Positions 9,105 through 24,178 of a stretch of 24,613 nt of DNA are shown here, in pieces. Source of the stretch: a virus; IMG/VR virus record IMGVR_UViG_3300045971_000411, positions 1 to 24,613 of that record; one strand, written 5' to 3'. Under the pieces are notes generated by a model. The model did no database searches. It saw nothing but the letters and a program-made list of their open reading frames with translations, and was not told where the DNA came from. A program made the translations under genes and the position numbers. Every line of letters starts with the position of its first letter. Positions within the stretch are counted from its first letter, which is position 1.

Positions 9105-9505
9105 GCTTGATGCTCCTTTAGGGTGTTGTTGAACGGGGTAATTAGCTGGTTAAGGCGGTCTTTGTCAGCTTGGCGGATTGTTGCTGCTGCGTGTTGGTCA
9201 ATCAGACTTCGCGCCTCGATCATGCCGGAATGTGCTTCTCGAATGTCGCGCTCGTGATTGGCTATCTCGGCACGGATGGCGAGTAACTCAGAGCGGTGAG
9301 GGCTCGCATCAACTAAATTCAGCACGGCTCCCTCACTTTGTTTCTGAGCGTCCTGCTCGGCGCTGCGTAGGCCGTTGATGACCCGATTCGCTGCCCGGAT
9401 TATCTGGTGCGCGTCATTCATCAGGTCGGCAAGGGTTTGGATGGTTTCGCGCTTGCCATTGCGTGTGGCTATGAACGGTTGTCCGTCGATTAGCTGGATC
9501 TTCAT
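9101..9505 (-). CDS. Helical protein with N-terminal beta segment
   Basis: 134 residues. The first 20 residues (MKIQLIDGQPFIATRNGKRE) look like a beta-hairpin; the rest is helical with heptads, rather like its downstream neighbour. It starts in a TAATG overlap with the InPase/M41 gene and overlaps the next gene by 4 nt. Function unknown; the three genes look like one assembly unit. Confidence 0.6.
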   Translation of the reverse strand: MKIQLIDGQPFIATRNGKRETIQTLADLMNDAHQIIRAANRVINGLRSAEQDAQKQSEGAVLNLVDASPHRSELLAIRAEIANHERDIREAHSGMIEARSLIDQHAAATIRQADKDRLNQLITPFNNTLKEHQA

Positions 9506-10917
9506 TATTGATGTCCTTTGTTAAGTGTTTTAGTTTTTTGCCCATGTTGTCCAGAGGCGAGAGGGCGCATGTTCAACAAGATTAATTTTTTCCCATGTCC
9601 CGGGCGGATTGTTCGCCTGTCCTCCAGCTTGTTGGCCGGATTGTTCGATATGGCCTTGGCAAGCACGGCCTGAGCGTATCCCATGATTTCCCCAATTTGG
9701 TCAGCGTTTAGCCATTGCCGTTTGTATACCTGTAGGGACAGCTCACGAATAGCCTTTAGCCATCGTGCGGCAAATTCATCTGTCATTGCTGCCGTGTCTT
9801 GGGCTATGCGTAAAACTATCTCATCCTCGCTGCTATCGCCTCCCGCCCTGAGCTCGTCGCGGGCTAGTTGAAAATCGCTAGAATTGAATGTGAGATACGA
9901 TCTGTCATAGCCCAGCGCTTCAGCGGCAGCGCCAGCAATGGCTACTTGATAACGAGAGCCGGTTTCATTCGCCCGGTCGTAGCAAATACCTACCCATTCA
10001 CCGCCCAGCCGATCAATACCCATTCCGCCTACACCGCAACACAGTTGTGCTGATACAGCGTGACCAGCCTCGTGCAGTGCCAATGCCCAGCGTTCTGATA
10101 GTTCGTCTTCATTCGCATATTCAAGCGGAACCTCTATAGCGAGGCGTGGACTGAATTCAATGCAGTCGGATTCTATTTTGAAGAGTGGCTCGGGGTCATC
10201 GGCGGGCAAGATAGGGGTAATTGCTTTAACCATGCACCCGTCAGCCTTGCGCGCCTTCTCGACAAATTCAGCAACTGGCATAGCAGTGATTGGGCCAAGG
10301 AAACGCGGGTCGTCGTAATGTTTCAGGTATGCGGCACGGGCGTCAGCTTCACTGGAAAAATTTAGTAAACATTTGTCTTCGTCGTACCGCTCCCAATCGC
10401 CATATTTGCGTTGATGCACCACGTAGACGGTATCGGAATCCTCATCGGGCCCAACGTACACATCAACCTGATCACCGTCGCTTCCTTCGGTTGAGTTGAT
10501 ATACCCGTATGGAAAAAGCATCTTGGTTTGCCAGCCTTTGCCCTTTCGAATTGAGCCAGCCTCATTCTCAATTGAAATAATCAGGCCGTGCCATGCAAGC
10601 TTGCGTTTCTTGTAGTTTCCGGCTTCGGCTTGGGCGGGCGTGGGGGTGTTCAAAGGCTGTTGCGGTTTGATTACATTCCTGAGGAATAAAATCTTGGGAA
10701 AGGCTTTCACAATCAGATTGCTGTTGGCCTCAATCACATGTGACCACAGAACGTTGTGTTTTTTTCCGTCTGAATCCTCGCCGACAAAGCCGTCTGCTCC
10801 ATGCGTTACAACCTTCAATGAAGTTGTTCCAACACAGCTAAGATTGGCCTTAAGCGTATCGCCATTTTTAATGCCATGCCGCGTAGCAAAATCGTCTTCT
10901 TTGTTTTTTTGTATCAC
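9505..10917 (-). CDS. InPase-like / M41-like metallopeptidase fusion (polyvalent-type protein)
   Basis: 470 residues from a GTG start with GAGAGG 7 nt upstream. Residues 1-65 look like a small SH3/KOW-type barrel. Residues 105-225 carry the phage inorganic-pyrophosphatase-like domain: WHGLIISIENEAGS, FPYGYINSTEGSDGDQVDVYVG, then a DWERYDEDKCLLNF stretch. Residues 275-400 are like the FtsH (M41) peptidase: HEAGH at 282-286, AGAAAEAL at 328-335, and SSD (D348) as the likely third zinc ligand. InPase domains are known in polyvalent proteins of phages and conjugative elements (Iyer, Aravind and colleagues), where they travel with the DNA. The role is unproven; an injected protein acting early in the host is plausible. 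Catalytic residues look intact. Confidence 0.75.
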   Translation of the reverse strand: MIQKNKEDDFATRHGIKNGDTLKANLSCVGTTSLKVVTHGADGFVGEDSDGKKHNVLWSHVIEANSNLIVKAFPKILFLRNVIKPQQPLNTPTPAQAEAGNYKKRKLAWHGLIISIENEAGSIRKGKGWQTKMLFPYGYINSTEGSDGDQVDVYVGPDEDSDTVYVVHQRKYGDWERYDEDKCLLNFSSEADARAAYLKHYDDPRFLGPITAMPVAEFVEKARKADGCMVKAITPILPADDPEPLFKIESDCIEFSPRLAIEVPLEYANEDELSERWALALHEAGHAVSAQLCCGVGGMGIDRLGGEWVGICYDRANETGSRYQVAIAGAAAEALGYDRSYLTFNSSDFQLARDELRAGGDSSEDEIVLRIAQDTAAMTDEFAARWLKAIRELSLQVYKRQWLNADQIGEIMGYAQAVLAKAISNNPANKLEDRRTIRPGHGKKLILLNMRPLASGQHGQKTKTLNKGHQ

Positions 10918-15300: not shown

Positions 15301-15618
15301 TTATGCCGCTAACAATTCGGCCTCAATCGGCTTGATGCCAGCCAATGTCGCCGGTTTTTGCGCCACTTCCCAAAGATCGACTGCCTGTTGCATACGTAGC
15401 CAGCTTTCCGGCGTGGTGTTGAGAAGTTTTGCAACTCGTGAAGCCATCTCTGGTGACATGCCACGCTTTTCGTGAAGTAGTTCAGAAACAGACAATCTGG
15501 ATATGCCCAGCCGCTGCGCGAATTCTGTCTGTGTCATTTGAAGGGCAGGTAGCACATCTTCGCGCAGGATTGCACCAGGATGAGTCGGGCGACGTTTTGG
15601 GTCTCGTAAGCTTTTCAT
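15301..15618 (-). CDS. higA: HigA-type antitoxin (XRE family)
   Basis: 105 residues. The pattern RPTHPGAILREDVLPALQMTQTEFAQRLGISRLSVSELL is the standard HigA/VapI start, with the recognition helix at SRLSVSELLHEKR (about 40-52) and MSPEMASRVAKLLNTTPESWL after it. Antitoxins of this kind bind and inhibit the RelE-like toxin and repress their own promoter. The gene follows the toxin gene without a gap, the usual higBA order. Intact. Confidence 0.92.
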   Translation of the reverse strand: MKSLRDPKRRPTHPGAILREDVLPALQMTQTEFAQRLGISRLSVSELLHEKRGMSPEMASRVAKLLNTTPESWLRMQQAVDLWEVAQKPATLAGIKPIEAELLAA

Positions 15619-15897
15619 TTAGTGATAATCCTCCAAATTAACATCAATAGCGTCTTGGTCATCGAATTTAAAAGTAATGCGCCAGTTCTTAGTAACGGTC
15701 ACGGCATACGTTCCCTTAAGCTCACCTTGCAGCGGGTGGAACTTGAAGCCGGGAATATTCATATCTTCCGCCCTGACAACAGTATCAAGACGGTCAAGGA
15801 TTCGATCTGTTCGTTCCTCAGTCTTTGCAATGATGCCACGGTGATCACCTTTTTTGAAGAACCGCTCAAGACCTTTGTGTTTGAATGTGCGTATCAT
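15619..15897 (-). CDS. higB: HigB-type toxin (RelE superfamily mRNA interferase)
   Basis: 92 residues. FKHKGLERFFKKGDHRGI at the start, then LDRLDTV and FHPLQGELKGTYAVTVTKNWRITFKF, ending with DVNLEDYH. This is the HigB/plasmid maintenance killer pattern. Members cut ribosome-bound mRNA. Length is full. A promoter with an overlapping palindrome lies upstream. It probably stabilises the element or gives abortive defence. Confidence 0.92.
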   Translation of the reverse strand: MIRTFKHKGLERFFKKGDHRGIIAKTEERTDRILDRLDTVVRAEDMNIPGFKFHPLQGELKGTYAVTVTKNWRITFKFDDQDAIDVNLEDYH

Positions 15898-19098: not shown

Positions 19099-19120
19099 GG
19101 TCACGGCTTACGCCGCGACC
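19099..19120 (-). promoter_or_regulatory. DGR-type hairpin downstream of the variable region
   Basis: On the minus strand GGTCGCGGC-GTAA-GCCGTGACC forms a 9-bp stem (one G-T pair) closed by GTAA, a GNRA-type tetraloop. It begins 12 nt after the stop codon of the variable gene. Diversity-generating retroelements carry a hairpin with a GRNA or GNRA-like loop just past the variable repeat, where it raises retrohoming efficiency. Confidence 0.65.
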
Positions 19121-19132
19121 CGTGGCCCGAGA

Positions 19133-19846
19133 TCAGAGACTCTTGGTGCAGCGGACGCCCACGTAGTCGCCGCGATACTCGGGATAGCCGAGGCTGAGAT
19201 AGAACACACCGGCCCCCGAGAGCGAGCCGAAGCAGCCGCCCCGCACGAGCGCATTACCAGACCAATCCCATACTTCGTAGTTGCCCATACCTTTTTCTTC
19301 GCTTGGATATTGGGGTGTGCTAATTGACGGAGAATTACTGTCAAAGTCGCTGTCGATGATTCCGTCCTCGTTGCCTTGAACGTTATCGGAAACCCACTGA
19401 TAGATATTCCCGTTCAGGTCGCAGATTCGCTCGCCATTAGATAGGGTGAGCCAGCGTTGCTCTGTTTCGTCCGGCGATACGAAGTTGCCCGGCTGAGCTT
19501 CATTTACTGTGTCGTTGCGCAAACCTTGGAATAGATCACCTTCACCGACTTTTCCGCCAGTCCAGTTGCAATCCTGATTTGCGACATCGTGCGCAATAGC
19601 AAGCCATTGCGTTTCAGTGATCCGTTCGCCGCCAATAGATTTACAAACTTCCTGTGCCTCGTAGAAGCTAATGTCTACCAAAGGCTTGGCCTCTGCATTG
19701 ATTACTGCTTTGCCATCCGGCCCTTTGCCGCATACGTATTGACCTACTTGAAACGATGGCACCATGGTGCCGTTTGGCAAGGTGACCGCCGGTACGATTA
19801 TGAATATTTCATGTTCAGTGCTGCTTTGTTCGGTTGCGGTGTTCAT
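19133..19846 (-). CDS. FGE-sulfatase-like (C-type-lectin-fold) variable protein of DGR type
   Basis: 237 residues, start supported by AAGGAGG 5 nt upstream. The formylglycine-generating-enzyme-like fold is visible: VPAVTLPNGTMVPSFQVGQY, then KPLVDISFYEAQEVCKSIGGERI, ERICDLNGNIYQWVSD and YEVWDWSGNALVRGG. The last 35 residues, after RGG, read as AGVFYLSLGYPEYRGDYVGVRC, the usual ending of DGR variable proteins. There the ligand-binding residues are Cys, Phe, Gly, Ser, Leu, Tyr, Asp, where templates have AAC/AAT codons. No signal peptide. The gene is in the replication operon, an unusual place. It may be a display or receptor-binding protein. No reverse transcriptase is in the window. Confidence 0.85.
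   Translation of the reverse strand: MNTATEQSSTEHEIFIIVPAVTLPNGTMVPSFQVGQYVCGKGPDGKAVINAEAKPLVDISFYEAQEVCKSIGGERITETQWLAIAHDVANQDCNWTGGKVGEGDLFQGLRNDTVNEAQPGNFVSPDETEQRWLTLSNGERICDLNGNIYQWVSDNVQGNEDGIIDSDFDSNSPSISTPQYPSEEKGMGNYEVWDWSGNALVRGGCFGSLSGAGVFYLSLGYPEYRGDYVGVRCTKSL
19136..19252 (-). other. Candidate DGR variable region (VR) with IMH-like end
   Basis: Codons 199-237. The stretch is GC-rich and low in A against the rest of the gene, with codons ending in C and scattered changes to TGC, TTC, GGC, CTC, TAC where DGR templates have AAC. The 3' end is followed by a GC-rich stretch (IMH-like) and the hairpin at 19099-19120. Borders are approximate because no template repeat is available to compare. 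Confidence 0.7.
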
Positions 19847-20028
19847 TGCTGCCTCCTTCGGTTGGGTTGGTTTGTGGGACTGTTTGAATTAGATTTCATT
19901 ACTTCTATGCGCAATCTTTTGATTTCGGTATTGAGCTTGTTCAGGTGTTTTGTTTTGCCGGACAGGATTGCCATTGCGCGCTCGGCGAGTGTGTTGTCCA
20001 GCATGGTTTCAGGAAGTGAATTTTTCAT
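19843..20028 (-). CDS. Small coiled-coil protein
   Basis: 61 residues, basic, with the heptad-like stretch LNKLNTEIKRLRIEVMKS and a polar Asn/Pro/Arg C-terminus. It overlaps the helicase by 4 nt and the variable gene by 4 nt, so it is in the same translation-coupled chain. Function unknown. Confidence 0.55.
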   Translation of the reverse strand: MKNSLPETMLDNTLAERAMAILSGKTKHLNKLNTEIKRLRIEVMKSNSNSPTNQPNRRRQQ

Positions 20029-20984
20029 GCGTATTCATCCATGGAATAATTCATTGCCCGTGGGCTTTCCATGAATCGCATTGAGTTCACGTCAAACCAC
20101 AGTGCTATGCGGCCTTCCCATTCGCCGTTGCGTTGCTTGTCACAACAAATCATTGCATCAGGCGTTTTTCTGATTTCTTCCGAGGTGTCACCGTCTGCAA
20201 CCTTCTGTTCCTTTTTCTTGTTGCGCCAAACGGTCAGCACGTTGTCAACCTGATCGGTAATTGAACCTGAACCCTTAACGCTCATTTTTCCTGGCATGTT
20301 GAATTCATCTTCTGTTTTCTTTGCGTGGGTGACTAAGTGAACATGGCATTCGGTATCTTTAGCGAAAGCGCACAGACGATCTACAAAACGTTTCTGCCCG
20401 TTGTAGTCATCTTCACCAATACCGCACTTCATTAGCGAGTCAACAACGAAGTGTTCAACTAATAATTTTTCCGCTGCGTAGTACATCACCCCTATTACCT
20501 TGTCAGCAGACACCGTGCCCTGTTGGTCGTACAGCCACAGTTTTCCATCCGCGCGAGACACAAACTTATTGATAAACTCATTGCTTGGATTTCGCCCTCC
20601 AAGGGCTTGGCGGCACATTCTGGCCAGGGTTGTGACAGGTTTCATCTCCAAGCTGGCTATGCAAGCCTTGCGTGTGCGCAGGAGGTGCAAAATAACTTGC
20701 CCGAGGGCGTTGGATTTACCGTGCCCGTTAATTCCATTCCAAACGGTCACTTCGGAATGACGAAAGCGAATAAGGTTTTCAGTCTTTGGCCACGGCATAC
20801 AATCACCAGTTTCGCCTTCGCTGTCGTCGAAGTGGCTAACAAGTTGGTCAAGAAAGCTGCTGGGTACTTTGACATTGACGTGATCTGCTGTGTCACGCTC
20901 AGTCATGTGCCGGTTAATCTCTGCCTCATTGATCATGAGTTTTGCAAAGGCTTGAGCTTGTGCTTCGTTTTGTGGGGCGTTCAA
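20025..20984 (-). CDS. DnaB/Twinkle-like replicative helicase (ATPase domain)
   Basis: 319 residues. Walker A is GINGHGKS (84-91); SLEM (E113) follows; Walker B is HFVVDSL (D182); H220 in VHLVTHAKK and the segment GSGSITDQVDNV (238-249) match the DnaB-family motifs H3-H4; a CDKQRNGEW Arg near residue 285 is typical. The N-terminal DnaB domain is replaced by 75 other residues, as in phage helicases. The start is a TTG that overlaps the upstream stop (TTGA), with GAGGTG ahead. Role: unwinding DNA at the element's replication fork, loaded by the O-type protein two genes upstream. Confidence 0.85.
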   Translation of the reverse strand: MNAPQNEAQAQAFAKLMINEAEINRHMTERDTADHVNVKVPSSFLDQLVSHFDDSEGETGDCMPWPKTENLIRFRHSEVTVWNGINGHGKSNALGQVILHLLRTRKACIASLEMKPVTTLARMCRQALGGRNPSNEFINKFVSRADGKLWLYDQQGTVSADKVIGVMYYAAEKLLVEHFVVDSLMKCGIGEDDYNGQKRFVDRLCAFAKDTECHVHLVTHAKKTEDEFNMPGKMSVKGSGSITDQVDNVLTVWRNKKKEQKVADGDTSEEIRKTPDAMICCDKQRNGEWEGRIALWFDVNSMRFMESPRAMNYSMDEYA

Positions 20985-22610: not shown

Positions 22611-23075
22611 TCACCCACCCCATTGGATTTTTTTAATCTCTGCATAGTTTTCAGCGCAAACATCGCCCAGCGTATCAGCAATTTCCTTATACCAATTAAA
22701 GTCGCTTGTCCCATCTTTGTATGAGCTTTCAGCGGTATCGCTTGATTTGAATTCGAAGTTACTCATCTCTTTCTCTATTGCAGCATCTTTTTTCATCCCT
22801 TCTTTCATCAACAAAGCAATTTGTTTTCTAAATAAAAAATTGCGCCAACGTTTATTATTCGGGTTCCCCGGTTTTTTCCATGTCAAACAAAATGCAATAT
22901 TGGCGTCCTCTTTCAGTACTTCAATGAAATTGAAGGCCTCAAGCAAATAATTTGCAACATGAGGAGGTAGCGCCTCATTATTCAGCATAGACTTTCTTGC
23001 TTGCGCAAACAGAGAAAGTGCGCCGGCACGATCAATAGGTGAATATTTCTTTTTAGGGTAGTCCTTGTCCATCAT
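22611..23075 (-). CDS. Hypothetical phage protein
   Basis: 154 residues (a second ATG at 23072 would fit the GGGAG spacing better). Helical with Lys-rich segments and no membrane span; WKKPGNPNNKRWRNFLFRKQIAL is the most distinctive part. It overlaps the integrase end by 4 nt (ATGA). Codon use looks more AT-rich than that of its neighbours. Function unknown. Confidence 0.6.
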   Translation of the reverse strand: MMDKDYPKKKYSPIDRAGALSLFAQARKSMLNNEALPPHVANYLLEAFNFIEVLKEDANIAFCLTWKKPGNPNNKRWRNFLFRKQIALLMKEGMKKDAAIEKEMSNFEFKSSDTAESSYKDGTSDFNWYKEIADTLGDVCAENYAEIKKIQWGG

Positions 23076-24178
23076 GCCACTCCCATTTTCTGCGCTAGAG
23101 CATTACCAATATCTGACACACGAGCAGGCGCAAGGTGTGCATATCGACTAACCATCGCCATTGTTTTATGGCCTAGTATCTTGCTCACTTCCAATGCACT
23201 AACCCCGTTCATCATCAAGTAACTCGCGCAGGTATGGCGTAAATCATGCCAGTGAAAATTGGTAATTTCGGCTTCTTTCATAGCGGCAACGAAAGGAGTT
23301 CGCAGCGCAATGAATGTGGACTTTACTGCTTTCTGTGTGGCAGGGAATATCCGATCATCTTTCAGGCTTCGTACCTTGTTGCGTTCCTGTAGCAACGTGA
23401 AGGCTTCACCAACCAGCGGCAATACTCTTGCGTCATCGTTTTTTGTTGTGCCCGCGTAGAGCGTTGCACGGGCGGATTTAAGGTCTATTTGTCCCCAGCG
23501 CAAACCCATTACTTCGGACTGTCTCCCGCCAGTGGTCAGCGACAACAACACGGCAAGATAAAGGTCAGGATGCTTTTTGCAAGCTGTCAGGAAGCGGGGT
23601 AGTTCGGCATCGTCTAGGAAACGAACACGGCCTTTATTTTCTTTTGGCTTTGTGATGCGCTCAACTGGATTGCGTTCAAGCCAGCCCAACTCTTTCACCC
23701 CATAGGTGCAAACACTGGATAGCGCAGCGAGACTGCGATTCGTTGTTGCGCCAGTACGCTTTTTATTAGTAGGGACACGCGACACAGTGCCATCATCACC
23801 ACGGCGGCGAACGGTTACAGGCTCATTCAATAGGGCATCACGGCCTTGAGCAACCAATGGCGGTGTAATGTCCTGTAATAACTTTTCGCCATGGTGTGTA
23901 CGCCACCAAACCAGACGCGCCCGCATATCCTTGGCGGACTTCAACTCTTTGTGTGCTTCACTCTTCTCGTAAGAATCTATCAACTCATTCAATGTGTGGC
24001 GCTTACTAGCTCCACAGTGTCGACCTGCTTTAATATCGGCTTCGGTTTTTTGTACCCACTCCTTGGCATCGGTCAATCGACCAAACGTCGAACTTTCAGG
24101 CAAGTATCCTTTCAGGCGAATCTTTACCCGATAGCTGGTCGTTCCGTCATCGTTTTTGCGCTTTTCAATACTTGCCAT
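23072..24178 (-). CDS. int: Tyrosine-recombinase integrase
   Basis: 368 residues. The N-terminal SAM-like arm and core-binding region (about 60-170) precedes the catalytic domain with R219 (TTGGRQSEVMGLRW), K246, H311-x2-R314 (HDLRHTC), H337 (LGH) and Y346 (SRYAHL). All catalytic residues are present, so it should be active. AAGGAG lies 6 nt before the ATG. It is next to the tRNA-Lys att site, as in most tRNA-targeting elements, and it probably starts the operon that continues to replication genes. It integrates and, with an excisionase, excises the element. Confidence 0.97.
   Translation of the reverse strand: MASIEKRKNDDGTTSYRVKIRLKGYLPESSTFGRLTDAKEWVQKTEADIKAGRHCGASKRHTLNELIDSYEKSEAHKELKSAKDMRARLVWWRTHHGEKLLQDITPPLVAQGRDALLNEPVTVRRRGDDGTVSRVPTNKKRTGATTNRSLAALSSVCTYGVKELGWLERNPVERITKPKENKGRVRFLDDAELPRFLTACKKHPDLYLAVLLSLTTGGRQSEVMGLRWGQIDLKSARATLYAGTTKNDDARVLPLVGEAFTLLQERNKVRSLKDDRIFPATQKAVKSTFIALRTPFVAAMKEAEITNFHWHDLRHTCASYLMMNGVSALEVSKILGHKTMAMVSRYAHLAPARVSDIGNALAQKMGVA

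Follow-up and report, generated by a model that had tools for sequence, protein, structure and literature searches.

A DGR variable region in the early operon of a viral contig that lacks a template repeat and reverse transcriptase

The locus and its variable protein

The window, by which we mean the whole stretch of 24,613 bases analysed here, is a linear viral record (IMGVR_UViG_3300045971_000411) without end repeats, carrying tail and structural genes, replication genes, a regulatory region and, at its right end, an integrase. An 84-kb phage related to it (IMGVR_UViG_3300038704_000019, hereafter G017; locus L105) shares its tape-measure (50% amino acid identity), tail (48%), head (57%) and spike (77%) proteins and a structural domain (84%). 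The scan of the window proteins recognised neither a terminase nor a portal or capsid protein. G017 has terminase and portal, so a part of the window phage's genome is probably missing and the record is probably a fragment. The 470-aa product of positions 9505-10917 contains a 147-aa stretch 84% identical to a G017 protein of about 1700 aa, and a small gene pair at 15301-15897 resembles, by eye, a HigB-HigA toxin-antitoxin module.

The gene under study stands in an early/replication operon with a replicative helicase (Table 1), in agreement with the sequence-only reading, which had set it in the replication operon. Its product matches PF03781 at 28.2 bits (cut-off 23.3). The AlphaFold model of the protein (mean pLDDT 83, with a low-confidence loop in the variable region and residues 206-211 below 50) resembles the DGR variable proteins TaqVP (Z 14.5), TvpA (13.3) and Mtd (12.9), and also FGE/EgtB enzymes, the FGE enzymes reaching Z 13.8; a sequence search of solved structures with the same protein returned nothing at E 0.01. 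The modelled structure is consistent with a DGR target, having a C-type-lectin/FGE-type fold with the variable region (VR) at its C-terminus. Outside the VR, dN/dS is about 0.11 (window against locus L003). A crude hydropathy check gave no clear N-terminal signal in the protein, which is therefore likely to be cytoplasmic.

Table 1. Features of the window around the variable-protein gene
Feature	Positions	Strand	Basis or remark
Hairpin GGTCGCGGC-GTAA-GCCGTGACC, 9-bp stem including one G.T pair	19099-19120	-	12 nt past the stop codon
Stop codon of the variable-protein gene	19133-19135	-	
Variable protein, 237 aa, FGE-sulfatase / C-type-lectin fold	19133-19846	-	PF03781; AlphaFold model
Constant VR 3' end GTGGGCGTCCGCTG, position of the initiation-of-homing segment	19149-19162	-	Alignments; occurs once in the window
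DGR variable region (VR), homologous to template repeats (TR) of relatives	19149-19256	-	Adenine bias against the TR of L105/G017
DnaB-like replicative helicase	20025-20984	-	phrog_239, PF03796; upstream of the variable-protein gene, same operon
Tyrosine integrase	23072-24178	-	PF00589; near the right end of the contig

Variable region, hairpin and homologous cassettes

Homologues of the variable protein were found at 78 viral and 24 genome loci, mostly betaproteobacterial, whose translated C-termini follow the hypervariable pattern RGGxWxSxxxAGVFxLxxxWPxxxxxxVGFRCT, after which comes a hairpin. Many loci hold a second, A-rich copy, the TR, with a reverse transcriptase (RT) gene after it, in the order target gene(s), Avd-like accessory gene, TR, RT. 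The RT of the family matches PF00078. Against the Avd model NF033474 the accessory protein scores weakly over its C-terminal part (28.4 bits, E 1.5e-6, under the model's cut-off); its N-terminus we take to be MutS-like, a likeness for which Pfam gave no confirmation. For 126 VRs accompanied by a TR in their own locus, the distance between the two has a median of 1.9 kb and stays within 7.3 kb in 95% of cases, a survey that under-counts remote cases, its flanks being limited to 10 kb. One cassette (L048:8482-10406) has a tandem pair of accessory genes and two TR-like copies, and in a Rhodocyclaceae MAG (BROCD002, hereafter G004) two prophage regions (L011, L012) with flanks of 80-86% identity share a first target gene that is 98% identical. 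On Massilia and Telluria chromosomes (L021, L023-L027) we find FGE relatives that are not diversified: their C-terminus is nearly fixed, TR and RT are absent nearby, the DGR-type hairpin is absent in those tested, and 22-25 of about 80 non-A sites differ from the TRs. These relatives may be an ancestral or a domesticated form.

The VR of the window lies within the last 40 codons of its gene, where the C-terminal layout of a DGR variable protein had been noticed from the sequence. It was compared with the nearest of 48 distinct TRs by non-A distance, that of G017; this TR comes from a relative and not from the window record. Changes are found at 19 of 28 template A sites and at 8 of 80 other sites (Fisher P=1e-8), and every A of the window VR is an A in this TR; the adenine-directed change read earlier from the codon pattern is borne out by this comparison with a real template. 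The second-closest TR has 16 non-A differences. As a control, 128 VRs whose locus also contains a TR differ from it at 2043 of 3235 template A sites (63%) and at 64 of 10589 non-A sites (0.6%). The 8/80 of the window exceeds what is seen inside complete loci, which indicates that its own template remains unseen, and the searches returned no record near-identical to the window locus. The scaffold codons changed in the window VR are TTC for TGG and GTC for TTC, and both are found in TRs elsewhere (L085, L107).

At the position of the initiation-of-homing segment, the TRs of relatives end in ...CGCTGACCCAA and the VRs in ...CGCTGCACCAA. The hairpin with its GTAA loop, also described in the sequence-only reading, proves to be conserved in the family: a GNNA or GNA loop occupies its position behind 85 of 106 VRs with a same-locus TR, and its core is identical to those behind the VRs of G017 and of L070, L074 and L091. 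Folding of the window hairpin's stretch is only modestly better than that of shuffles (z -1.4). Stem pairs vary compatibly across the family, 82% being Watson-Crick against 69% in shuffles, a figure biased upward because the hairpins were selected for pairing. The published phage consensus consists of GRNA tetraloops on 7-10 bp stems located 4-34 bp from the VR (PMC3240598); the GTAA loop and the triloops of the family lie outside it. The hairpin and the constant 3' end of the VR would together mark the homing site.

These comparisons leave us with little doubt that gene 19133-19846 has a genuine DGR variable region at its 3' end, which appears to have been written in the past by an RT system of the type found in close relatives. 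That the protein might instead be a common FGE-domain protein with an RGG...RC motif that merely resembles a DGR target is very improbable. The motif does belong to the FGE fold, and the Massilia and Telluria proteins show that relatives without diversification exist; those relatives, however, differ from the TRs at 22-25 of about 80 non-A sites, against 8 of 80 for the window, and the strength of the adenine bias and the conserved hairpin speak against this explanation as well.

Where the cassette may lie

Neither a match to an RT nor a second VR or TR copy turned up in the 24,613-base record, nor did any remnant of an accessory gene, TR or RT; as it stands, this probable fragment contains no complete DGR. 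A TR or VR with the window scaffold was absent both from IMG/VR viral contigs (three patterns and one codon-degenerate pattern) and from 399 genomes of one order (one pattern). In a phage collection tblastn gave zero matches, a plasmid search gave two Janthinobacterium plasmids at 37-40% identity, and the flanks of 80 loci with relatives of the helicase contained neither FGE target nor accessory gene, with one weak RT match. The earlier statement that RT and template are missing from the element thus stands for the record; as the window is probably a fragment, 'not in the element' becomes 'not on this contig', and for now the orphan status can be ascribed to the contig only.

Templates do exist in related phages. 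G017 has its TR and RT at 25.2-26.5 kb and another VR some 14 kb away, at 40.6 kb; RT, accessory gene and one target adjoin the integrase, while the other target sits in an early operon with a RecE-like gene. Its TR matches the remote VR of the same phage, and those of L070, L074/L075 and L101, at 80 of 80 non-A sites, and in six of six pairwise comparisons the VRs of this group differ solely at template A, showing that targets remote from the cassette have clearly been diversified in this TR lineage. The two outcomes that the sequence-only reading had named as refuting it, no template in related strains and differences away from template adenines, are thus both contradicted. The part of the window gene just upstream of the VR is closest to L003 (94% identity) and L002 (88%) and distant from the G017 group (56%), whereas in the non-A scaffold of the VR the G017 group is closest (90%, against 80-81% for L003/L002). 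Such discordance between body and VR is what one would expect had homing from a template like that of G017 overwritten the VR; it is modest statistically, and constraint or selection on the VR scaffold may partly account for it. Of six relatives of the spike, G017 alone carries the target or strongly matches the family RT; the record of L203 has a distant RT.

Where, then, is the cassette of the window? Three states are met with among relatives: remote in the same record (G017), deleted or decayed (L004, L019), and carried by a second contig within one MAG (G004). That of the window may lie in the rest of the same phage, may belong to another phage, or may be lost. Our preferred reading, to which we give a probability of only about 0.45 for its parts jointly, is that a G017-like TR wrote the VR, that the cassette sits in the missing part of the same phage genome, and that the VR is still being diversified. 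The target is the VR of a DGR of the type found in mostly betaproteobacterial temperate phages, with the cassette order given above. In a past event, mutagenised cDNA from a G017-like TR would have replaced the VR segment, altering template-A positions; the cassette would act on it from a stretch of that phage's genome lying outside the contig, and ongoing diversification would yield variant forms of an early protein that is probably cytoplasmic and would bind a putative ligand. The window's own TR would match GTGGGCGTCCGCTGACCCAA, with A at the changed sites.

The 8/80 non-A differences from the nearest TR count against this proposal, and so do the 19 kb downstream of the VR that the contig covers without a TR. 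The latter favour instead a target-only phage whose VR is diversified in trans by an RT and TR that a second prophage or the host chromosome supplies. The sequence-only reading held that diversification must take this course, which goes too far, given that the contig is probably incomplete and that the G017 cassette lies about 14 kb from a comparable VR. A trans situation was seen once in the family, in a MAG. In that MAG, G004, contig C29 has a complete DGR, and contig C3 a related prophage region that misses the block of second VR gene, accessory gene, TR and RT and keeps two VR genes, both matching the C29 TR at 85 of 87 non-A sites, the same as the VRs inside the cassette; no further close matches to this RT family were found in the assembly. 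A cassette-less prophage beside a cassette-bearing one makes trans action plausible, also for the window VR, and trans action of DGRs has been inferred for Thiohalocapsa (PMC10907252). The MAG, however, may mix strains (one shared VR gene is 98% identical between the contigs), a template for the window scaffold was found nowhere in our searches, and most long VR-bearing contigs of the family carry the RT themselves, so we hold this course to be possible but rather unlikely for the window. We give no greater weight to a fossil orphan, that is, a gene kept without diversification after loss of its cassette. Loss is known in the family: at L004:8152-8970 the N-terminus of the accessory gene is fused by deletion to the C-terminus of the RT and the TR is gone, so that L004 appears from its sequence to be a decayed DGR with two target genes; L002 retains a weak 40-aa RT-like remnant containing a stop; and in the Herminiimonas genome that holds L019 a VR occurs with no RT or TR matches. 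The L019 VR, with 8 of 79 non-A differences from the TR, is akin to that of the window in this respect, and isolates of T. denticola lacking RT and TR retain target genes (PMC4891356). Against a fossil, the window bears no remains of accessory gene, TR or RT, and its hairpin is intact, with the core of the G017 group, whereas L019 has no GNA/GNNA loop; decay is not required to explain the TTC and GTC codons, since they occur in TRs of other loci.

Known systems and biological meaning

DGR targets that are remote, orphan or diversified in trans have been described before. G017 and the betaproteobacterial prophage DGRs of Aromatoleum (L005) and Gallionella (L006) have the same target family, VR scaffold type and hairpin as the window, and differ from it in possessing accessory gene, TR and RT; G017 is like the window also in having a target in an early operon and in the tail and head genes common to both. 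The DGR of Treponema denticola (TvpA; PMC4891356) likewise has FGE-sulfatase-type targets, several of them remote, and these are bacterial genes scattered over the chromosome, whereas the target of the window belongs to a phage early operon. Thiohalocapsa PB-PSB1 resembles the window in its incomplete loci, the VRs of which agree with a distant TR at every non-A site, read as trans action (PMC10907252), and the targets there belong to bacterial conflict systems rather than to a phage. Bordetella phage BPP-1 (Mtd; PMC3240598) shares the hairpin just downstream of the VR, and the similarity of Mtd to the model has been given above; BPP-1 diversifies a tail protein beside its RT, unlike the early-operon target of the window, and the phage consensus loop in that work is GRNA, against GTAA in the window and GNNA loops or GNA triloops in the family.

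It is conceivable, if doubtful, that phages carry free-standing targets and make use of a DGR belonging to a co-resident prophage, one cassette then diversifying early non-virion genes on several mobile elements of a cell. The family provides a natural setting in which to test whether a DGR acts from one prophage on another, and its GNNA and GNA hairpin loops broaden the published GRNA consensus. What it diversifies is a probably cytoplasmic protein of the early operon, and not a tail protein.
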